A DNA stretch of 46,582 nt, from assembly GCA_947457565.1 (NCBI GenBank), contig CANGWH010000010.1, positions 1 through 46,582 on the forward strand, given 5' to 3'. Below, piece after piece: positions 20,029-32,555 of the stretch (its first letter is position 1; every line of letters begins with the position of its first letter). The translations under genes were made by a program, and so were the position numbers. The DNA is from Flavobacteriales bacterium (GTDB lineage: Bacteria > Bacteroidota > Bacteroidia > NS11-12g > UBA955). The notes beneath the pieces are model-generated. The model saw only the letters and a list, made by a program, of their open reading frames with translations. It did not search any database and was not told the origin of the DNA.

Positions 20029-21252
20029 TTATTTATCCGATAGAGCTCCTAAATCAAACAAGAAAGAAAATCTCATTTGATTTTGAAGAGGGTGTCTGCG
20101 GATAAATGGCACTAAGTACGCTGCATCAATGGTAATTGTTTGGTATTTAATTCCAAAGCCCAATGTTCCATATTGTCTACCGCCTTTTTCACGAGCTTCA
20201 TAAAACACGCCGCCTCTAATGGTAAACTGATCGTTGTAAGTATATTCCATCCCCCCCGATAACATGTATTCGTTAAGTTCCTCTTTCAAACCACCTGGAG
20301 CATCATTAAATGATTGAACCATACCCTGAACCACGTTTACATTAGGATCTCTGCCAGCCAACAGAATTCTTTCACCTGTGGAGGATACAGAATCACCACC
20401 GTCCCATTTTTGCACATAATACGGTCTTGTTGGAACCAATAATTTATTAATATCGGCGTAGATACTAATCTTATTATATTCATCGATGTCTGTAGTATAT
20501 CCTACTCCTAATTTCAAATTCGTTGGAAGAAAATCTAATTTTTCTCTGGAAGAATACGTCATTTTTGAACCAATATTTTGAATATTGATACCTGCTTTGA
20601 GCTTGTCGTATTTATTTCCATTTTTAATTTCTGTCTTGTAGGTAAAATTAATATCTCCGGCACCACCCAATGCGGCTTTATAGTCAATTCCACCGATTGC
20701 TCTGTTACCGGTTAAATTGGAGTAGATAAATCTCAAATTCACGCCCCAAGCAAAATTTTTATTCAACTTAATAGCAACACCTCCATCCAATGAAAATTCG
20801 TTTGGATTAAAGTTACCGGTGGCATTACCATCAATATCGGTAAACTGAATATTGCCTAATGAAAAATATCTAAATGATCCACCGATGGCAACGTTGTCAC
20901 CCATTTTACTATAACCAGACAAATAACTAAATCCTACATCATCCACAATCTGCCTCAACCATGGTGCATACGACAAAGAAAATCCTGTACTTTGATTGGC
21001 AAAGACTAGATTCGACATATTCCACGAAACGCTATTAGCATCGGGTCTAAATAATGCAACGCCCACATCGCCCATTGCCGCTGATCTGCTATCTGGCGTA
21101 ATAGTCAAGAATGGAACCATCGTAGTGATAGCATTCAATTCGTTGGCTAACTTTCCTGTAAGTTCCTTGGTACCAATTTGAGCATTACTATTAGGAACCC
21201 ATGCACCTAAGGCCACTGCACTTAAAACTATATATTTACCTAAAGAATTCAT
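20029..21252 (-). CDS. porV: Type IX secretion outer membrane channel/shuttle protein PorV
   Basis: ORF track start 21318; preferred M23 (MNSLGKYIVLSAVALGAWVPNSNAQ) gives a signal peptide with promoter TATTTTTG 12 nt upstream. 'TVPFLTITPDSRSAAMGDVGVA' is a PorV hallmark; gene adjacent to porU. Confidence 0.92.
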   Translation of the reverse strand: MNSLGKYIVLSAVALGAWVPNSNAQIGTKELTGKLANELNAITTMVPFLTITPDSRSAAMGDVGVALFRPDANSVSWNMSNLVFANQSTGFSLSYAPWLRQIVDDVGFSYLSGYSKMGDNVAIGGSFRYFSLGNIQFTDIDGNATGNFNPNEFSLDGGVAIKLNKNFAWGVNLRFIYSNLTGNRAIGGIDYKAALGGAGDINFTYKTEIKNGNKYDKLKAGINIQNIGSKMTYSSREKLDFLPTNLKLGVGYTTDIDEYNKISIYADINKLLVPTRPYYVQKWDGGDSVSSTGERILLAGRDPNVNVVQGMVQSFNDAPGGLKEELNEYMLSGGMEYTYNDQFTIRGGVFYEAREKGGRQYGTLGFGIKYQTITIDAAYLVPFIRRHPLQNQMRFSFLFDLGALSDK

Positions 21253-21264
21253 TGTCAACTTTGG

Positions 21265-21272
21265 CAAAAATA
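21265..21272 (-). promoter_or_regulatory. -7 promoter box TATTTTTG of porV
   Basis: Exact TAnnTTTG on the minus strand, 12 nt before ATG. Confidence 0.5.
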
Positions 21273-21341
21273 TAGGTTTGAAGTCAAGCATCCTAATACT
21301 AGTGTTTATTATTCTCATTGTAAATAAATTAAAATTGATGT

Positions 21342-24300
21342 TTAATGATTGGGGTAATAAATCAACTTACCACCAATTGTTGCTTGCAATCCATCGGTAG
21401 TAGTAATATGAATCTTATAAAAATAAAGTCCTTGTGAAAGGGAATCACCTTCAAACGATAAATTATTTGAATTTATGGGTATTAATCCTTCAAGTTGAAT
21501 AATTGGGCTAGAATAAGCAGCTTCAATGAGAAGGTTTCCTTTGCTTACGACCTGCCCCGATACTGCATTAATTTGCCAGTCAACTTTTAAATCTTCACCT
21601 GGTAATGAATGACTAAACCACAATTTACTATTTTCCGAAATTGGGTTGGGATATACACCGTAATCATTAATTTTCAGTTGTCTACCTGGTGTTACAATAC
21701 CCTCGGTAACTCCGCTACCAAAGTTGTTAAAAATATCCCAAACTTTACATCGAAAGGTATGTTTACCTGGCGATAATTCAAACAGCGGAACTACCAATGT
21801 GCCTTTCGTAAAGGAGTTAACATCGTATTGAAAATATTGGTTAACAACTAAGTTTTGCTCAAATTCGGTACCTTCATCTATGACTAAAACTATATCACGA
21901 CCAATACCTGAACCCGTTGCATTAATACCGTTATCATCATAAATACGCGCTACGAAATCAACATTTTTAGAAACGCTAGATCCAGCTATAAATGAGGTGT
22001 CTTGCAGGTAAGCCAAGACTTCAGGCCCAACGGTATCAACTTTAGATAATTTAAGACTTGAACCAAGCATAAAATTCCAGCCGCCGGTTGCATCCGTGAT
22101 ATTGTTGTGTGCGTAAAATATTGCCTTACCAATACCCACCTGGTATGATATATCCTTAGGTACCACAAAAATCAAGGTAAATAGTCCTTTATCTACGGTT
22201 ACCTGACCATTAAAAATAACTGAGTTTTGTTCATCAAAATTAATTCTACTACCGTTATTATCATTATCTAAAGTAAACTGACTGTTGGGTTTATCGAAAA
22301 TTGTAACCCATAAATTCCCGTTAAATTCATCCATTAAGCCTTTACCTCGTTCTTGTATATGCCCTTTTATCGTTACAATTTCGAAGGCTTTTAATGTATC
22401 ATTAAAGGAACTGAAATTTTTACCTTGAACCGAATCCACTAAAATCAAATGCTCCGGAAATGCTAATTTCATACTAGCATCGCCAAGTAAAGCAAACTTT
22501 TTATCGTCATCGGTTTTATTGGGTCGATTTTTTAATTTTTGAAAAACGTCTCCTACAGACGGAATTGGATCATTGGGACCTGGAAAACCATATTGAGTCC
22601 AAAAAGCCCTATTGATTGCTGAATTTGAAGGCACATAAACTAATCGCGTAGTTGTTAACGATGCTATCGCTCCCCCCAAAGGATTAAGAACTGCTAATTC
22701 ACCGGCACTTTGAAAATTAGGATCATCATACTTTGTAAACTCGCATGTTGCAGTAAATAGAACAGGCATGCGGTATTCATTTCTCCAACTTTTAATAGTT
22801 GGTATATCCAATAAGGATTCTTGACCTAATCCCTTTTCTCCGCCATGACCTTGATAATTAATAAATAAACTACCTTCCGAAATTCTATTGTTAAAGGTAG
22901 TTGTAAAGTCGGGATAACGTTCACTGTTACCATTTACAATTTGAGTGAATGCATCAGCGTATACTTTACGAATTCTAACGCTGGGATTATTGTTATTGAT
23001 ATATTTAGCATATTCCTCGCTTTGAACCACAAATTCCGTTTCCCAGACTTGGTCTGCATCGTCACTAGTAAAAACAATATTGTTACGCCATGGGCCCAAC
23101 GACTTTTTACTATCGTATCGAATCAATTTTTCTACAAACCCGTTGGCTTCTTCCAAGGTTCGTGCTGGAATTCTGCCCACAGATACTCCTAGTTTATCAC
23201 TACGGGAGATTTCAGGATCTCCTTGTCTTGGTTCCGTATATACAATGTACTCATCTAAACAGAATATCACCGCCGGTGAGTGTCCAAACGATTGATAAAT
23301 TGGAACCCTATTCGTATTATTTGAGATTCGATCCAACATATCATAGCTAGCGGCTCCCATTAATGTCACATACTTGAAATTACCAGCCGTTTTGTCAGAA
23401 ACATCTTTTAACCAACGAATACAACGTCGAAGTGCTATTAAATCAGCCTGTCCGCCCGTAAATTCATCATAAATCTGTTGAGGGGTTACTACTTTAACAA
23501 TTTTCGACTGGCTCCTTCTTAAATCGGCTAATTTATTCGCGGCCGACAACAATGATTCGTGCGAAATAATTAGAAGATCCGGGATTTCGGCAACATTAAA
23601 CATCGATTTACTCGCAATTCCTCCTAAATACGTTGGGCTATTTAATGTGGATTCATCAAATGCAACAAATTGTGATTTCATTTCATCGAAAGGAATAATT
23701 ATTCGACTTTCATTTCCATTTTGTTCCACTTTCCATTCTCTTGGATTTTGCATATCCGAGACATTCCAAAATCGTAATGATTTACCGGTTGAATTTGATA
23801 CGTTAAACTGAATCGTTTGGTTAAGATTAAGCCACTGATTATCAATTAGAATAAGTGGCACGCCCAAAAATTCTATTTTTCTTTTGCCTAATATTCTAAT
23901 AAAGTCCAAATAAACAGATGTTTTAGTGTTGGGCCTAACCAATCGAAGATTGATATCTAAACGCTGATTACTTACCGATGTAGTGTAATTCCTAGAATTG
24001 TATTTGTATTTATCATAACTACCAATGTTTAACGGCGACAATGAAAGTGTATCGCGAATTGCATTTACTGAAGTAAATAATGTAGCCGATGATTCCTCAA
24101 CCGCGGCTGCCGATGTTACTTGAACTTCCACTGAATCAACTCCATTTGGTATCGGTATAGAAAAGTTCCGAACTAGGGTTTCATTTCCAAGTCGCTCACC
24201 TAACCAAACTCTACCCATATTATTTAGGTTTACTACATCTGAATCATGAACATAAGTCCAAACGGATTGGTCAACAATCCTTTCAGGTATTAGAGCAGAT

Positions 24301-24758
24301 TGCAATTGTTTAATTCTGTTCCCAGACTTAGTGTTGTACCCGAAGATTGCTTGTGTATTTTGCGTATAAATATTTTTGTAATGTTGAATACCTTTTGAAT
24401 TTGCAGTAAAACCGCGGCTGCCCGAAATGTAGAAAAGAAAATAATCCCCAGGTCCCCATTTATTATCGGTTCCTCTAACAACCATCATTGAGACTTCTTC
24501 TGTTTGGGGAATAATTGTATCAGGATTCGATGACGGCAAAATATTTCCTTGAATACAGAGCAAATGAAAATTATCATCTGGGTTTTGTGATGGATTCAAC
24601 CCCCATGCTTCAGTATTTTCATAGGTTATTTTATAAATTCCCGTTTGATTAAAATTGAGTTTAATCCACTTACCTTCATCAAACCAACGGGTTTGCGCAT
24701 TTACTGTTGAATTCGCAAAAAAAACAATCAATAATAAAGCTACTATAAGGTTTCGCAT
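21342..24758 (-). CDS. porU: Type IX secretion system sortase PorU (peptidase C25 family) with C-terminal T9SS-like tail
   Basis: ORF 1138 aa; gingipain-like 'FINYQGHGGEKGLGQES' (His) and 'VLFTATCEFTKYDD' (Cys); C-terminus 'INDYGVYPNPISENSKLWF...LSQGLYFYKIHITTTDGLQATIGGKLIYY' resembles a Por secretion tail. Confidence 0.93.
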   Translation of the reverse strand: MRNLIVALLLIVFFANSTVNAQTRWFDEGKWIKLNFNQTGIYKITYENTEAWGLNPSQNPDDNFHLLCIQGNILPSSNPDTIIPQTEEVSMMVVRGTDNKWGPGDYFLFYISGSRGFTANSKGIQHYKNIYTQNTQAIFGYNTKSGNRIKQLQSALIPERIVDQSVWTYVHDSDVVNLNNMGRVWLGERLGNETLVRNFSIPIPNGVDSVEVQVTSAAAVEESSATLFTSVNAIRDTLSLSPLNIGSYDKYKYNSRNYTTSVSNQRLDINLRLVRPNTKTSVYLDFIRILGKRKIEFLGVPLILIDNQWLNLNQTIQFNVSNSTGKSLRFWNVSDMQNPREWKVEQNGNESRIIIPFDEMKSQFVAFDESTLNSPTYLGGIASKSMFNVAEIPDLLIISHESLLSAANKLADLRRSQSKIVKVVTPQQIYDEFTGGQADLIALRRCIRWLKDVSDKTAGNFKYVTLMGAASYDMLDRISNNTNRVPIYQSFGHSPAVIFCLDEYIVYTEPRQGDPEISRSDKLGVSVGRIPARTLEEANGFVEKLIRYDSKKSLGPWRNNIVFTSDDADQVWETEFVVQSEEYAKYINNNNPSVRIRKVYADAFTQIVNGNSERYPDFTTTFNNRISEGSLFINYQGHGGEKGLGQESLLDIPTIKSWRNEYRMPVLFTATCEFTKYDDPNFQSAGELAVLNPLGGAIASLTTTRLVYVPSNSAINRAFWTQYGFPGPNDPIPSVGDVFQKLKNRPNKTDDDKKFALLGDASMKLAFPEHLILVDSVQGKNFSSFNDTLKAFEIVTIKGHIQERGKGLMDEFNGNLWVTIFDKPNSQFTLDNDNNGSRINFDEQNSVIFNGQVTVDKGLFTLIFVVPKDISYQVGIGKAIFYAHNNITDATGGWNFMLGSSLKLSKVDTVGPEVLAYLQDTSFIAGSSVSKNVDFVARIYDDNGINATGSGIGRDIVLVIDEGTEFEQNLVVNQYFQYDVNSFTKGTLVVPLFELSPGKHTFRCKVWDIFNNFGSGVTEGIVTPGRQLKINDYGVYPNPISENSKLWFSHSLPGEDLKVDWQINAVSGQVVSKGNLLIEAAYSSPIIQLEGLIPINSNNLSFEGDSLSQGLYFYKIHITTTDGLQATIGGKLIYYPNH

Positions 24759-24910
24759 AACGGACTATAAAATTACGAAAATTCCAAAGATTTATTGCCT
24801 ACATGACGTTACTATGACAAAATTCTCAAACTTTTTTTGAAAAATTGCAATTATTCAATATTTCTTATGATAAATCGTTTTTATTTGTACTTTTGTTAGT
24901 TGTCAATAAT

Positions 24911-25915
24911 ATGAACAGAACTTTACGTGCACTTGGATTGGGTTTTGCTGCTGCCATTTCGTTGCAGTTACAGGCGCAAGATCCTGAATTGTCACAATTT
25001 TATGCTTCACCGGTTTACACAAACCCTGCGTTAGCAGGTTCAGCGGTTTGTAGTTATGGTGCGGCGGGTAGAATTGCTTTAAACTACCGTAATCAGTGGC
25101 CTAACCTACCCGGTACATTTCGTTCATTTGCTGCATCTTGGGATCAACACATCCCCGCAGTTGGTGGAGGTTTAGGCGCCATGGTATTCCATGATATTGC
25201 AGGAACGGGTTTATTGAGCACTACCAGTGTTAGTGGGGTTTATTCCTACTTACTACAATTAGACCGCAGACAAAGAATGTTTATGCGCTTTGGTCTTCAA
25301 GGCTCCTTAGTAAACAAGTCATTGGATTGGAGTAAGTTAAGATTCTCCGATCAAATTGATCCAACGCAGGGATTTGTGAATGCGACAGGAGAACAACCTC
25401 CAAGTCTAACGAAAACATATTCAAACTTCAACGCTGGTTGGATTATGTATACGCAGAAATTCTATATCGGATTTGCAGCACATAACATTACCGAACCTGG
25501 TTGGAGCTTTTTTGAAAATCCCGATGAAGTTCATCCTAGACGTTTTACTGTGCACACCGGCGGTGTAATTCCGTTGTCTAGAAGCCGATTTGAACAGAAT
25601 AACTTTTCTCCCAATATGTTGTTTATGAAGCAACGTAATTTCACACAGATGAATATTGGTTTTTATGCGAATAAAGGCCCATTGGTTACAGGATTATGGT
25701 TTAGACAAACCTTTGGACAACAAAAGAATCCAGATGCCATCATCATGTTGGTTGGCTTTAGAAAAGATCGATTCAAATTTGGTTACAGTTATGATTTTAC
25801 AGTAAGTGATGGTAGAACTGCAATTCCTTCGAGTCATGAAATCAGCGCAACTATTGATTGGTGCGTACCTCCAGGAAGACATCCATTTAAACCTTTACGC
25901 TGTCCAGAATTTTAA
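24911..25915 (+). CDS. Type IX secretion system membrane protein PorP/SprF family
   Basis: ORF track start 24845; M23 (MNRTLRALGLGFAAAISLQLQAQ|DPELSQFYASPVYTNPALAGS) is the PorP/SprF signature. Confidence 0.92.
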   Translation: MNRTLRALGLGFAAAISLQLQAQDPELSQFYASPVYTNPALAGSAVCSYGAAGRIALNYRNQWPNLPGTFRSFAASWDQHIPAVGGGLGAMVFHDIAGTGLLSTTSVSGVYSYLLQLDRRQRMFMRFGLQGSLVNKSLDWSKLRFSDQIDPTQGFVNATGEQPPSLTKTYSNFNAGWIMYTQKFYIGFAAHNITEPGWSFFENPDEVHPRRFTVHTGGVIPLSRSRFEQNNFSPNMLFMKQRNFTQMNIGFYANKGPLVTGLWFRQTFGQQKNPDAIIMLVGFRKDRFKFGYSYDFTVSDGRTAIPSSHEISATIDWCVPPGRHPFKPLRCPEF

Positions 25916-25936
25916 ACTATTCCTAATGACAATTAT

Positions 25937-25964
25937 AAAAACCCGAGTCACTTCGGGTTTTTTT
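25937..25964 (+). terminator. Rho-independent terminator after porP/sprF
   Basis: AAAACCCGAgtcacTTCGGGTTTTTTT. Confidence 0.8.
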
Positions 25965-26043
25965 CTGCAAAAAATGGAAAAAAACATTACATTTGCCAAT
26001 AATACAGACTATCTGTCGTTATAATAAACAAATAATTCACACC

Positions 26044-27561
26044 GTGTTACAGAAAAACAATGCATGGATGATGGCCGCGGCAGCGATGATTGGATTCGCT
26101 GGATGCGCACGCCAACCGGTAAGTAAGACTACGGGTCAGACTTACAATGATCCCAAATGGGGCGGATTTTACAACCCCAAGTACAAAGGTCAAGAAACAG
26201 GCCCGGGTTTAGTTTTGGTTGAAGGTGGTTCATTTACAATGGGCTCAACCGAATTTGACCTACAACACAACAATGACAACACCGAAAGAACGGTAACAGT
26301 AAATTCTTTTTACATGGATGAAGCTGAAATCAGCAATCAACAGTACAAAGATTACGTTTACTGGTTAGGTAGAACGTTTGTTTCTTATCCGGAAGTTTAC
26401 CAAAAAGCCCTCCCCGATTCTTTGTGTTGGAGAAGACAATTAGGTTTTAACGAGCCTTTTGTTGAATATTATTTCCGTCACCCCTCCTACAAGGATTATC
26501 CAGTGGTTGGTGTAAGTTGGAAACAAGCTTCTGAATTCGCTCAATGGCGTACTGATCGCGTTAATGAATATATTCTTGATCGTGAAGGTATCGTTCTTTT
26601 CAAAATTGAGACTGATGCGGTTGATGATAACAACTTCAATACTCGTGCTTATTTAGCGAATCAGTTCGACTTTGTTTCTAAAAACAAGAAGTCCCCATTA
26701 AAAGACTACAGCAAGAAGAAAAACAAAGACCAGCGGAGACAGAAAGCTATTATGGAAGATGGTATTCTATTGCCTGAATATCGTTTACCAACAGAATCTG
26801 AATGGGAATATGCATCTCAAAACAACATTGGTGAAGTTAACTTTACCAATATTGACCAGAAAAAAATATACGGTTGGACGGACTACACTGTTAGAATAAA
26901 GGATCAAAAAGAAAATGATAGAGGTAAAATCCGTTTAAATGCTATGGTTGGCAAGGGTGATATGGGTGGTATTGCAGGCGGATTGAATGATGCCGGTTTT
27001 GTTCCTACTACTGTTTATAGTTATTGGCCGAATTCTTATGGTCTATATAACATGGAAGGTAACGTAGCCGAATGGACCATGGATGTTTATCGTCCTTTGT
27101 CTTTAGAAGACTTCGATGAGTTTATGCCTTTCCGCGGTAACGTATTCAAGACGTTGGTTTTGGATCAGTATGGTGCAATTGTAGACAAGGATAGCCTTGG
27201 ACGTTTAACTTATCGCGACGTTACAGAAGCTGAAAACGTAAATCGTAGAAACTACAAAAAAGCCGATAATATGGGCTTCAAAGATGAATTAAACTACAAC
27301 TCAGGTGAAATGACTTATGACTACGGTGTAACTTCATTGATCAATAACAAAGCCAGAGTTTACAAAGGTGCTTCGTGGAGCGATCGTCTATACTACGCAT
27401 CTCCAGGTACTCGTCGTTTCTTAGAAGAAAACTTAAGTCAATCTAATTTAGGCTTCCGTTGTGCAATGGTTCGAATTGGTGCACCAACTGGAAATGCCAA
27501 GAAAAAATACAATCGCTTGCCATCATCTGGTATTGATAAAAAGACAAAACAACGTAAGTAA
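26044..27561 (+). CDS. gldJ: Gliding motility / T9SS lipoprotein GldJ
   Basis: ORF track start 25993; likely starts at GTG 26044 or at a downstream ATG before the lipobox AMIGFAGC. 'QETGPGLVLVEGGSFTMGS', 'ALPDSLCWRRQLGFNEPFVEYYFRHPSYKDYPVVGVSWKQASEFAQWRTDRVNE', 'NLGFRCAM'; SUMF1-like fold. Confidence 0.87.
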   Translation: MLQKNNAWMMAAAAMIGFAGCARQPVSKTTGQTYNDPKWGGFYNPKYKGQETGPGLVLVEGGSFTMGSTEFDLQHNNDNTERTVTVNSFYMDEAEISNQQYKDYVYWLGRTFVSYPEVYQKALPDSLCWRRQLGFNEPFVEYYFRHPSYKDYPVVGVSWKQASEFAQWRTDRVNEYILDREGIVLFKIETDAVDDNNFNTRAYLANQFDFVSKNKKSPLKDYSKKKNKDQRRQKAIMEDGILLPEYRLPTESEWEYASQNNIGEVNFTNIDQKKIYGWTDYTVRIKDQKENDRGKIRLNAMVGKGDMGGIAGGLNDAGFVPTTVYSYWPNSYGLYNMEGNVAEWTMDVYRPLSLEDFDEFMPFRGNVFKTLVLDQYGAIVDKDSLGRLTYRDVTEAENVNRRNYKKADNMGFKDELNYNSGEMTYDYGVTSLINNKARVYKGASWSDRLYYASPGTRRFLEENLSQSNLGFRCAMVRIGAPTGNAKKKYNRLPSSGIDKKTKQRK

Positions 27562-27755: not shown

Positions 27756-27767
27756 TTTGCTCTTTGA

Positions 27768-27839
27768 GCGAGAAACGAGACTCGAACTCGCGACCCCAAC
27801 CTTGGCAAGGTTGTGCTCTACCAACTGAGCTATTCTCGC
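27768..27839 (-). tRNA. tRNA-Gly (anticodon GCC)
   Basis: GCGAGAATAGCTCAGTTGGTAGAGCACAACCTTGCCAAGGTTGGGGTCGCGAGTTCGAGTCTCGTTTCTCGC; cloverleaf pairs, acceptor GCGAGAA/TTCTCGC, loop TTGCCAA. Confidence 0.95.
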
Positions 27840-27943
27840 TTATCAGAGTAAGAAAGCATTTATCATGTTTTCCTCTCAAACGTGGTGCAAAAATACAAAA
27901 TTTATACACTCATGTCAAGGCAATATTAAGTTTTTTTTCAAAA

Positions 27944-28309
27944 AGGCAGTCCTATAAGCCGGGTTCTGTACCATTGCTGGTCTCTATCATTAATCTGCGA
28001 CAAGGTTCGCACCTTGCCTGTATCGATCTACCCTCCTGGCATGCAATGCATTAGGGCGAGTAACCCTTCGATCCAGGTTTATTTGATCTTTCAACCCGTA
28101 AGGTTTGTCGGACAATGTATCACTACACTGTCAGTGGGCTCTTACCCCGCTTTTTCACCCTTACCTTGTAAACAAGGCGGTATATTTTCTGTGACACTTT
28201 CTGTAGCAAGCCCTTTACAAGACTTGCCCCTTCCTGTTAGGAAGTACGGTACCCTACGTTGCCCGGACTTTCCTACCCAAATTAATGGATCGATAGAGCG
28301 GACTGCCGC
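27944..28309 (-). ncRNA. rnpB: RNase P RNA (bacterial class A)
   Basis: Minus strand: 5' GCGGCAGTCCGCTC..., conserved GGTAGGAAAGTCCGGGCAACGTAGGGTACC, and 3' GGTACAGAACCCGGCTTATAGGACTGCC; ends pair as GGCAGTCC/GGACTGCC (P1). Confidence 0.93.
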
Positions 28310-28363
28310 ATCAAAGTTACAATCAAAAATCGATTTATATCGCTTGATAATAAAGTAGGTTAT

Positions 28364-28371
28364 TATCTTTG
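28364..28371 (+). promoter_or_regulatory. -7 promoter box TATCTTTG of gatB, 5 nt before ATG 28377
   Basis: Exact TAnnTTTG. Confidence 0.5.
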
Positions 28372-28376
28372 TGGAA

Positions 28377-29831
28377 ATGATCCCTGAAAGCAAATACGAA
28401 GCCGTAATAGGTTTGGAGATTCACGTACAATTACAGACGCTTAGTAAGGCGTTTAGTTCAGACAGTATTGAATACGGTGCATTACCGAATACTCAGGTTT
28501 CACCAATTAGCTTAGGCCATCCAGGTACACTGCCCATGCATAACACTGCGGCGGTGCACAAAGCGATCATGATTGGGCTTGCGCTAAACTCCGAAATCAC
28601 ACGATTTAATCGATATGCTAGAAAGAACTATTTCTATGCAGATTTACCAAAAGGCTATCAAATCACGCAATTCGATACTCCATTATGCGTAGGTGGAAAC
28701 GTAGATATTAAATTATCGAATGGTGAAGAAAAATCGATTCGATTAACTCGAATTCACATGGAAGAAGATACGGGGAAAAGTATGCATGATCAAGATATGT
28801 ACGATACTTTGGTTGATTACAACCGTGCCGGAACTGCGTTGATTGAAATTGTGAGTGAACCCGATATTAGGACCGGTGATGAAGCGTATGCCTTTGTTTC
28901 TGAGATACGACGATTAGTGCGTTATTTGGACATTTGTGACGGTAATATGGAAGAAGGAAGTTTGCGATGTGATGCGAACGTTTCTATTCGACCCATTGGA
29001 AGTAAAACCTTCGGAACCAAAGTGGAAGTAAAAAACATGAACTCGATTTCCAATGTTAAACGAGCCATTGATTTTGAAATTCGCAGACAAGCAGAAATAC
29101 TCGATAGTGCTGGATTAGTTATTGGAGAAACTCGAGGTTTTAACGGCTTAGCAGGTACAACTTTCAGCTTGAGAAAAAAAGAAGGTGTAACGGATTACCG
29201 GTACTTCCCAGAACCCGATTTACCGCCAACAGTGATAACCGACGAAATGCTAGTAAGTGTTCGTGCATCGATGCCAGAATTGCCACGAGTGATGTTTTCA
29301 CGATTTACCGCCAATTATGGTCTTTCTGATTACGATGCTTCGGTATTAATTGACGATAAACATAGCGCTCAATATTTCGAAAAAATCGTTTCTCATACTC
29401 AACAATACAAGCAAGCTGCTAACTGGGTAACAGGGCCTATCCGAGGATATCTGAATGAAAATGCATTAGGAATTGAAGAATTTGTATTAACTCCTACACA
29501 AATTGCTGATATTTTGTCATTAATCGAAGAAGGTATAATCAACCATACATCGGCCACCCAACAACTCTTTCCGAAATTATTGGATACTCCCAATAAAATG
29601 CCAAGAGAGTTGGTAGATGAATTAGGTCTTACCACGGTTAAGGATTCAAGCTTTATTGAAGATTTAATCCGAGATGTACTTGGGAATTTCCCTGACAAAG
29701 TTCAAGAGTATAAAAATGGAAAGGTAGGTTTAATTGGTTTATTTGTGGGTGAGGTAATGAAAAAATCCCAGGGCAAAGCCGATCCTAAATCAACCAACGA
29801 ATTGGTTAGAAAAATATTAGACGAAGCATAA
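28377..29831 (+). CDS. gatB: Asp-tRNA(Asn)/Glu-tRNA(Gln) amidotransferase subunit B
   Basis: ORF track starts at GTG 28371; ATG 28377 gives MIPESKYEAVIGLEIHVQLQT; 'RKNYFYADLPKGYQITQ', 'EEDTGKSMHD', 'DYNRAGTALIEIVSEPD', 'GSLRCDANVSIRP'. Confidence 0.96.
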   Translation: MIPESKYEAVIGLEIHVQLQTLSKAFSSDSIEYGALPNTQVSPISLGHPGTLPMHNTAAVHKAIMIGLALNSEITRFNRYARKNYFYADLPKGYQITQFDTPLCVGGNVDIKLSNGEEKSIRLTRIHMEEDTGKSMHDQDMYDTLVDYNRAGTALIEIVSEPDIRTGDEAYAFVSEIRRLVRYLDICDGNMEEGSLRCDANVSIRPIGSKTFGTKVEVKNMNSISNVKRAIDFEIRRQAEILDSAGLVIGETRGFNGLAGTTFSLRKKEGVTDYRYFPEPDLPPTVITDEMLVSVRASMPELPRVMFSRFTANYGLSDYDASVLIDDKHSAQYFEKIVSHTQQYKQAANWVTGPIRGYLNENALGIEEFVLTPTQIADILSLIEEGIINHTSATQQLFPKLLDTPNKMPRELVDELGLTTVKDSSFIEDLIRDVLGNFPDKVQEYKNGKVGLIGLFVGEVMKKSQGKADPKSTNELVRKILDEA

Positions 29832-29841
29832 TATAAGTGCA

Positions 29842-31674
29842 TTGATTCGTTATTGGGCACCTATATTATTCTTTTTTGGATTATTGGTTGGGAAAGAAAC
29901 TTCCGGACAGTCCAAGCAATATCCGTTTATTGATACAATAGCTTCTGTATTTCAATTCAGTGGTTCTTATTCGGTAAATCAACTTTACCAACAATGGCAA
30001 AATCGATTTACGCAAAAATTTGTAGTTATAGAATTGGGTAATGAGGAAGTAATTACACAACAACAATTGAGTTTATCTTGGTTGCAGAAAATGCAAATTT
30101 CGCCCGGCATTTTTTTTCCGTCCTCGTTCCTAGGTATAAATCATCCAAGTATATTTCCCAATACCCACACTGGAAATTGGATATACTCAACAACGGCTGA
30201 GAATTTCCCATTGATTAAGCCAGGCATTTGCGGGTATACAGCAAAATGTGAAGATGCAGCATCATCGTCGCTTACCATTGAGATTCCAGAAGAATTAAGA
30301 AAAACAACCAATAAAATACGCATTTACTGTGATAGAAACGAAGCATCGTTTGATGTGCTATTAATCACATCCAGTGGGATTAAGAAAACCATAACTGTTT
30401 ATCAAAATAAATCAGACTTGCTTGTTCCCTACATCGAATTTACATTTTCCTTTGGCCAGGAATGGATTAAGATTCAACCTCTTAAATCTCAATCCAAACA
30501 AAAGAGTTTCACATTGCATGGGGTGTCCCTGGAACACTCTGACTATGCCGTATGGCACGCGATTGGAATACGTGGCATTTCACTTCAACGGTTACAATCG
30601 ATAGACGGTTATTTTTTACAAATGCAAAAACTTAGCCCGTCTGTGGTAGTATTTGATGCTTTGCAACAAGATTTTTTCAGAAATAAACCCGCTACTGACA
30701 TTCAACTTTCGTTAAAAAGTTATTACCAAAGTCTAAAGCGCTATTTACCTAAAACTGGATTTGTACTTTGTCTACCTCAGGAAATTAACAGGAATCAAGA
30801 ACCGTTGGCCGAGAATTATAAGTTTATTTCCCAATTTAGAACTGAATTTATATCAAACAGTTATCCCGATTGGGTAATTTGGGATTGGCATCGAGTTTCT
30901 GGTGGGATTTATTCATCGTATTATTGGATGGATTCGGGCTTATTGAAATCCAATGGATTTCAGTTATCGGAAAACGGTATGAGAATAAAAAGTTATAGTT
31001 TAAACCGTGCTTTCCAACAGCTGTTATCTGGAATACCTGTAAAATCAAGAATTTTACCCTTAATTGATAGTACTCAACAATTAAAAAAACCAATAAAAGA
31101 CACTGCTGTTAGTAAACCTATAATCCGAGAAACATGGTTGTATCATACTGTAAAATATGGGGAAACAGCCTACAGAATTTCTTCCAAATATTCTATTTCG
31201 CCCAACGACCTAAAAAACTGGAATAATTTACGCGGTTATTATATTTACCCTGGACAAAAATTAAAAGTTGGAAAAGTCACGGAAGTCATTCAGCCCATTA
31301 TCCAAACACCGTTGAACAATAACGTTGATAGTTTTAAAATCATTGAACGGATAGAGACGACTAAGAATTTGGACATTTCTAATCCAACAAATGGTGCAAA
31401 CAATAGGTCTATTTTGGTTAATCCCATTTATCCAAAACAAGATAACACACAGAATTCTCAAGCTATTCCATCAGGCCAAATACCCGCAACTGATAAAATT
31501 ACAACACCTAAAGGTGCGAGTGCAACCAATTCTCCCAAATACCATCGTGTACAGGCAAGTGAGACATTATACTCAATCGCTAAGCAACATGGGGTTAGTG
31601 TAGATCAGATAAAACGACTCAATAGGCTTCCAAATAATACAATTTCTGTTGGAAGAGTATTACGCGTATGGTAA
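29842..31674 (+). CDS. Secreted protein with a degenerate SGNH-esterase-like region and two C-terminal LysM domains (TTG start)
   Basis: ORF 610 aa; LysM 1 'YHTVKYGETAYRISSKYSISPNDLKNWNNLRGYYIYPGQKLKVG', LysM 2 'YHRVQASETLYSIAKQHGVSVDQIKRLNRLPNNTISVGRVLRVW'; N-terminal region aligns by eye to Bacteroidota SGNH/GDSL esterases (see findings). Confidence 0.8.
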   Translation: MIRYWAPILFFFGLLVGKETSGQSKQYPFIDTIASVFQFSGSYSVNQLYQQWQNRFTQKFVVIELGNEEVITQQQLSLSWLQKMQISPGIFFPSSFLGINHPSIFPNTHTGNWIYSTTAENFPLIKPGICGYTAKCEDAASSSLTIEIPEELRKTTNKIRIYCDRNEASFDVLLITSSGIKKTITVYQNKSDLLVPYIEFTFSFGQEWIKIQPLKSQSKQKSFTLHGVSLEHSDYAVWHAIGIRGISLQRLQSIDGYFLQMQKLSPSVVVFDALQQDFFRNKPATDIQLSLKSYYQSLKRYLPKTGFVLCLPQEINRNQEPLAENYKFISQFRTEFISNSYPDWVIWDWHRVSGGIYSSYYWMDSGLLKSNGFQLSENGMRIKSYSLNRAFQQLLSGIPVKSRILPLIDSTQQLKKPIKDTAVSKPIIRETWLYHTVKYGETAYRISSKYSISPNDLKNWNNLRGYYIYPGQKLKVGKVTEVIQPIIQTPLNNNVDSFKIIERIETTKNLDISNPTNGANNRSILVNPIYPKQDNTQNSQAIPSGQIPATDKITTPKGASATNSPKYHRVQASETLYSIAKQHGVSVDQIKRLNRLPNNTISVGRVLRVW

Positions 31675-31799: not shown

Positions 31800-32555
31800 T
31801 CAGGCTTTACCGGTTAATTTATAGGCTAAATATCCAACCCATTCGTGAATTAACGCATCCCATTTTGAAATTGTTCCAGCGGAAGGTATCAGTATCGCAT
31901 CCCAAGAATACTTTCGGTCTAAATGGGATTGATAATTTACTGAATAAGGAATAAACGCTACACCTACTTTTTTAAAACAGCCCATACTTCTACGCATATG
32001 ACCTGCGGAAGTAACCAATAAAACCGGTTCATTTACCTTTAAACTATCCAAAATCTTTTTGGTTTCCACGGCATTTTCCCAAGTATTCCTTGATTTATCA
32101 TCAATCAATATTTGCGAATCTGCTATACCAAAATCAAGAGCAAATTTTTTAGCCGCAGAACTTTCAAAATAATCACGATTAAATACATTGCCAGAACCTC
32201 CCGTTAATATCAGTCGTTGAGTTTTACCAGTACTTAACATCTGCAATGGGAATACAAATCGTTCTGCAGCCTCATTAAATCCCATGCGCTTTCTTCCTTT
32301 ATCGTATGAAGTATAACCTCCCAAAACAATCACTGTTTTTGTAGGTTGGGTTTTACTTGGTGAAATTTCCCATGCTATTAAAATTTCATTTAATAGTACA
32401 TGATTTCCAAAAAACCATATAAGTACCAAAGAACCTATTCGAAGTCGGCGAGAAAATCTTGCAAACTTCGGCACCAAGGATAAAACGAATAATAATAAAA
32501 TATAAAAGAATGGCTTTAATAAAAATGAAACCATTTTTGATAATACAAAAAACAT
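31800..32555 (-). CDS. YdcF/ElyC/SanA family (DUF218) envelope protein
   Basis: ORF 251 aa; N-terminal TM segments, 'KTVIVLGGYTSYDK', 'LILTGGSG', 'SRNTWENAVETKKIL', 'LLVTSAGHMRRSMGCFKKVG'. Confidence 0.88.
   Translation of the reverse strand: MFFVLSKMVSFLLKPFFYILLLFVLSLVPKFARFSRRLRIGSLVLIWFFGNHVLLNEILIAWEISPSKTQPTKTVIVLGGYTSYDKGRKRMGFNEAAERFVFPLQMLSTGKTQRLILTGGSGNVFNRDYFESSAAKKFALDFGIADSQILIDDKSRNTWENAVETKKILDSLKVNEPVLLVTSAGHMRRSMGCFKKVGVAFIPYSVNYQSHLDRKYSWDAILIPSAGTISKWDALIHEWVGYLAYKLTGKA

Follow-up and report, generated by a model that had tools for sequence, protein, structure and literature searches.

What kind of protein is encoded by a reading frame that follows the layout of an SGNH/GDSL esterase with every catalytic block altered, and how has such a gene come to stand in its present place? 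The window, by which we mean the whole stretch of 46,582 nucleotides analysed here, belongs to a genome (G000) of 2.37 Mb in 144 contigs, 93% complete, from an uncultured bacterium that is probably freshwater; most of its named relatives are MAGs of Bacteroidota, several of them from lakes such as Baikal. The gene in question, here called pseudo-Ape1, starts with TTG 10 nt 3' of gatB. The locus comprises the following features.

28371..29831, + strand: gatB (Pfam GatB_N, E=2.7e-115), conserved on the upstream side of both intact and dead copies
29842..31674, + strand: pseudo-Ape1 ORF, 610 aa, an SGNH domain of Ape1 type, its catalytic blocks degenerate, and two LysM domains
29842..29907, + strand: putative signal peptide at the N-terminus, a hydrophobic stretch ending near residue 22
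30034..30051, + strand: block I, residues 65-70, L-G-N-E-E-V, with Glu68 in place of the catalytic Ser (intact relatives read GDSHV)
30160..30543, + strand: beta-sandwich insert between the SGNH halves, about residues 107-234, placed from AlphaFold2 secondary structure, the Ape1 match and conservation
30565..30576, + strand: GIRG, residues 242-245 (GING in intact relatives)
30655..30672, + strand: block III, residues 272-277, D-A-L-Q-Q-D, with Gln276 in place of the oxyanion Asn
30949..30966, + strand: block V, residues 370-375, S-N-G-F-Q-L, Asp replaced by Asn371 and His by Gln374
31144..31269, + strand: LysM domain 1, residues 435-476, from Pfam; solved LysM structures also match
31540..31665, + strand: LysM domain 2, about residues 567-608, from Pfam and solved LysM structures
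31800..32555, - strand: DUF218 / ElyC-like gene (Pfam DUF218, E=1.3e-27), convergent, the downstream neighbour in many copies

The putative signal peptide suggests export to the periplasm. The DUF218 gene matches the model of ElyC, an envelope factor, at E=4.6e-19, a score below the model cut-off. On the other side of gatB lie two RNA genes, in the gap between gldK and gatB, and beyond them the type IX secretion genes, grouped at window 20029-27561, with no gldLMN identified adjoining that group. An ORF at 28014-28358 (+ strand) is probably not a gene, since the RNase P RNA of the opposite strand extends into it.

20029-21318, - strand: PorV-like
21342-24758, - strand: C25 peptidase of PorU size
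24845-25915, + strand: PorP/SprF-like
25993-27561, + strand: GldK-like FGE-sulfatase protein
27766-27839, - strand: tRNA-Gly
27939-28309, - strand: RNase P RNA (class A)

The two LysM domains proposed by the sequence-only reading are readily recovered by Pfam (E=2.8e-29, 101 bits against a cut-off of 20.9) and are separated by a low-complexity linker, and the Pfam search returned no match for the SGNH part of about 380 residues. The relation of that part to SGNH proteins was missed by single-sequence searches, phmmer with the pseudo-Ape1 sequence reaching E=0.3 at best against the Neisseria meningitidis Ape1 structure 4K3U and a scan of the genome contigs retrieving nothing, so that alignments were needed. 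A profile built from ten dead relatives alone (A3) finds 4K3U at E=1.2e-18 and Campylobacter jejuni Ape1 at E 4e-10 to 6e-10, while a profile of intact relatives (A2) reaches 4K3U at E=8e-49, and the two profiles match one another at E=6.7e-74. The AlphaFold2 model of residues 24-400 has a mean pLDDT of 91.2; its input alignment contained intact relatives, of which the dead-only profile is independent. A Foldseek search of the PDB with this model places Ape1 structures alone in the top five (4k3u of N. meningitidis; 8gkd/8gld of C. jejuni), at E 3e-21 to 1e-20, and these crystal structures are the sole full-length matches, with TM 0.72-0.80. The next rank falls to E 2e-7 and TM 0.35 or less, CE2 enzymes being among the lower-ranked matches, and an intact syntenic relative yields the identical five Ape1 structures. 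Like Ape1, the model has an SGNH alpha/beta domain with an inserted beta-sandwich, and the insert, the counterpart of the Ape1 inserted domain, keeps the invariant G111, W113 and E120. The SGNH layout first discerned in the reading frame is thus borne out by a full-length structural match, and the match is specifically to Ape1. On the profile and model evidence pseudo-Ape1 is, by descent and predicted fold, a member of the Ape1 family.

The catalytic positions are another matter. In profile-profile and multiple alignment GDS is matched by GNE, the G(A/T)ND block by DALQQD and D-x-x-HL by SNGFQL, exactly the three alterations originally claimed (there given as changes of GDS, GTNE and DxxH), with a fourth in addition, such that the nucleophilic Ser is replaced by Glu68, the oxyanion Asn by Gln276, Asp by Asn371 and His by Gln374. 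The corresponding columns hold S, N, D and H in all 14 intact syntenic homologues. Of the motifs that define Ape1, GDS(H/F) with its nucleophilic Ser is represented by GNEE, the oxyanion Asn of block III by Gln276 and Dx(V/T)H by NGFQ, and for this reason the name Ape1 esterase is unsuitable for pseudo-Ape1. The earlier suggestion of a pseudoenzyme could have been overturned by an intact triad elsewhere in the protein. Among the residues invariant in the dead clade to which it belongs (clade I, below) are a single His (H239) and a single Ser (S233), from which no replacement Ser-His-Asp set is evident at the sequence level, nor does the profile alignment reveal one; the proposal of a pseudoenzyme on an SGNH/GDSL frame therefore stands. 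A limited literature search found no description of dead Ape1/SGNH-LysM proteins.

Whether the substitutions are conserved depends on the clade. Dead clade I (n=16) comprises the window copy, that of a second species of its genus (G001) and 14 copies reading 'GDE'; dead clade II comprises those reading 'GDY/GDI'. The Ser to Glu change holds throughout clade I, in which Glu68 and Arg244 are invariant (16/16) at positions occupied by Ser and by Asn (the latter in 14/14) in intact copies. The other changes are not so general, Asp and His being kept in the 14 GDE copies and both gone from the window and G001 copies, while clade II has lost all four of Ser, Asn, Asp and His and carries Tyr, Ile or Phe in the Ser position. 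One explanation of the invariant Glu68 is an enzyme of altered chemistry, with this residue acting as general base or covalent residue, for which the retention of Asp and His in the GDE subclade could also speak. Such an enzyme is very unlikely in view of the absence of Asp, His and the oxyanion Asn from the window and G001 copies and of the residues found in clade II, and we know of no SGNH hydrolase with a Glu nucleophile.

The same residues bear on a different idea, namely that the former active-site groove, and not the LysM domains alone, is now a specific non-catalytic site that reads glycan, with Glu68 and Arg244 contacting the ligand or closing the pocket. The invariant Glu of clade I, together with the Asp and His kept in one subclade, does suggest that the old pocket may do something specific, and W113, W349, W362 and a GG...W motif are invariant across dead and intact copies. 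A precedent is provided by CtCE2, a CE2 esterase in whose active site cellulose is also bound non-catalytically (PMC2661963). A binding function can thus reside in the active site of an SGNH protein, but CtCE2 belongs to another family and retains both its Ser-His dyad and its activity. Moreover, the residues of clade II indicate that Glu is no general requirement, and the further loss of Asp and His from the window and G001 copies that conservation does not extend to the entire pocket. We regard a glycan-reading groove of this kind as rather doubtful.

How the catalytic residues came to be lost is best seen from the surroundings of the gene. In 17 genomes of the family the site between gatB and the DUF218 gene is occupied by an acylation operon, and SGNH2, the counterpart of pseudo-Ape1, is intact in all 17. 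Sixteen of these operons, as far as their contigs reach, consist of a DltA-like ligase (LIG), GNAT, an 80-aa carrier (ACP), SGNH1, SGNH2/LysM and MBOAT; the remaining one (G002) is a PatA/AlgX-type variant with MBOAT, a DHHW/AlgX-type protein and SGNH-LysM. A full Dlt-like operon between the two flanking genes can be inspected at L073:982-7932 (G024), with equivalents in genera g4, g7, g8 and g12. The ligase is nearest DltA (E=2.4e-69) and the MBOAT nearest DltB, both scoring below the curated cut-offs, and the carrier, with a DSL motif, lies near the PP-binding cut-off; ligase, carrier, MBOAT and SGNH kinds co-occur in most operon-linked relatives. The carrier is found in the operons whose contig spans that stretch and in both of the intermediates described below, and at no bare orphan locus. 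In the loci examined, the MBOATs adjoining SGNH-LysM genes end in FXYXXF, bar two cut by contig ends; in PatA and DltX this tail is the acyl-shuttle motif (PMC12148441).

In 25 further genomes the operon is lost or eroding, and in every one SGNH2 is without its Ser. These genomes have SGNH2 without SGNH1 (the upstream flank being unseen in G033), and MBOAT is absent from all 22 in which the downstream flank is on the contig (it is cut in G072, G081 and G086). At the window locus, likewise, no MBOAT (pat) gene adjoins pseudo-Ape1. Loss of catalysis at this locus goes with loss of the adjacent acylation genes. We reject the stronger proposition that an orphan copy is bound to die: SGNH-LysM genes standing alone elsewhere (L159, L168, L190, L196 and one on contig C35 of the window genome) have intact triads, so that loss of an adjacent MBOAT does not always end catalysis.

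The order of events can be read within one genus (g4), whose members range from the intact operon through two half-eroded intermediates to the dead gene standing alone. The full operon with intact SGNH2 is present in G024, G004, G082-G085 and G088. G086 retains gatB-LIG-GNAT-ACP-SGNH2 with Ser replaced by Phe (HVGDFH), and G089 gatB-LIG-ACP-SGNH2 with Ser replaced by Ile (HIGDIH) and a carrier reading WNSV instead of WDSL; in G016, G029, G090 and G091 gatB is followed by SGNH2 alone, with Tyr for Ser (HLGDYQ). SGNH1 and the Ser are thus lost early, and the ligase and carrier linger. The SGNH tree separates the dead copies into two groups, of which one is sister to the intact g4 copies, and does not reject a single origin of inactivation (AU p=0.21); the gatB tree requires three changes, one origin having p=0.025 with all rows and 0.13 without two long branches. 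Because a single origin is not rejected on the SGNH tree, we claim only that catalysis was probably lost independently at least twice (two to three times on the trees).

Could the dead copies simply be remnants? A functionless pseudogene in decay, as yet unbroken, would be consistent with the missing catalytic residues, with faster evolution than gatB (G000 and G001 share 38-40% identity in this gene and 76% in gatB) and with the loss of one LysM from the G001 copy. Among ten dead pairs, some of them with saturated dS, dN/dS (Nei-Gojobori) is 0.05-0.22 over the entire gene and lower, 0.02-0.13, in LysM, compared with 0.03-0.09 in intact pairs and 0.01-0.08 for gatB from the matching pairs. Constraint on dead copies is looser than on intact ones, yet clear. 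These values apply to the dead clades, the window lineage being represented by one other species (G001), which at 39% identity is too distant for dN/dS. In addition, practically every one of the 25 dead copies has a full-length ORF (contig ends cut the copies of G080 and G086), and new invariant residues have appeared. Given the dN/dS values in the dead clades and the intact ORFs, the dead copies are not pseudogenes; we reject that explanation as most improbable.

The cell has not been left without enzymes of this type by the loss of catalysis at the window locus, since contig C23 of its genome carries an intact MBOAT/SGNH-LysM operon and C35 the lone intact SGNH-LysM gene, both outside the clade of pseudo-Ape1 on the tree. 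The lone gene (L068:3401-5419) has a counterpart in G001 (L070:4205-6052, contig C191); each has an intact triad and no adjoining MBOAT, and the nearest tree relatives of this pair, which covers both species of the window genus, are SGNH-LysM genes mostly from MBOAT/AlgX-type operons. In G001 the C23-type SGNH-LysM (L106, contig C26:1184-1843, - strand) is truncated, with four in-frame stops in the homologous stretch, beside an MBOAT neighbour that looks intact. The C23 system raises the prospect that pseudo-Ape1 is a decoy or regulator of the remaining acylation machinery, competing with its intact SGNH-LysM for wall sites, and a C23-type operon is also kept by several other dead-copy genomes. 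This role is unlikely: pseudo-Ape1 and the C23 operon are unlinked, and G014 has a dead copy and no C23-type SGNH-LysM was found in that genome, which is 70% complete.

Since catalysis disappeared along with the adjacent genes for adding acyl groups, pseudo-Ape1 seems now to be a non-enzymatic wall binder. We consider it likely, judging from sequence and model, that it is a catalytically dead Ape1-type esterase kept as a peptidoglycan-binding scaffold or glycan reader. The ancestor would have been an esterase-like SGNH2-LysM protein of an acylation operon between gatB and the DUF218 gene; the acyl-transfer genes would have been lost and the catalytic blocks would then have decayed, with the fold, the insert and the LysM anchors subsequently held by purifying selection. 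The periplasmic product would bind peptidoglycan, as its LysM domains and Ape1 homology suggest, without cleaving esters, and may by analogy serve other wall enzymes as scaffold, reader or sensor. Neisseria Ape1 and the lytic transglycosylase LtgA bind and stimulate each other (PMC7083599), and this complex is a precedent for a scaffold as CtCE2 is for a reader.

In this context the known systems provide a measure of how far pseudo-Ape1 has departed from its relatives. With Ape1 (4K3U, 8GKD/8GLD) it shares profile homology and the full-length fold including the beta-sandwich insert; it differs in the replacement of all four catalytic and oxyanion residues, in the two added LysM domains and in having no adjoining pat. 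Bacteroidota clusters of the form ape1b-ape1c-pat, and O-acetylated peptidoglycan in B. fragilis and B. thetaiotaomicron, were described by Weadge et al. 2005 (PMC1199599). The SGNH1-SGNH2-MBOAT genes of the intact relatives stand in matching order, but add an upstream DltA-like ligase, GNAT and carrier, as well as LysM on SGNH2, whereas at the window locus all partner genes are gone. The ancestral operon, with its DltA-like ligase, DltB-like FXYXXF MBOAT, DSL carrier and SGNH protein, also resembles the Dlt (DltA, DltB, DltC, DltD) and PatAB systems (PMC12148441), from which it differs in its Gram-negative host and in DltA/DltB scores below the curated cut-offs; here too all the genes are absent from the window locus.

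The analysis also brings to light, in Bacteroidota, a Dlt-like operon of ligase, carrier, MBOAT and SGNH genes. Although dead enzymes are common, the route to one is rarely visible, and here it is seen within a single genus. A bolder, tentative reading, which may well prove wrong, is that cell-wall acylation operons erode repeatedly at one chromosomal site, every erosion leaving behind the Ape1-type LysM esterase as a non-enzyme whose active site has been remodelled (with Glu68 and Arg244 in clade I) into a new site for binding glycan or a partner. If this were true, the body of the Ape1 protein would have an important non-enzymatic role in peptidoglycan organisation. A question arising from the work on Neisseria Ape1, whether peptidoglycan esterases play any structural part distinct from their catalysis, becomes testable with these copies.
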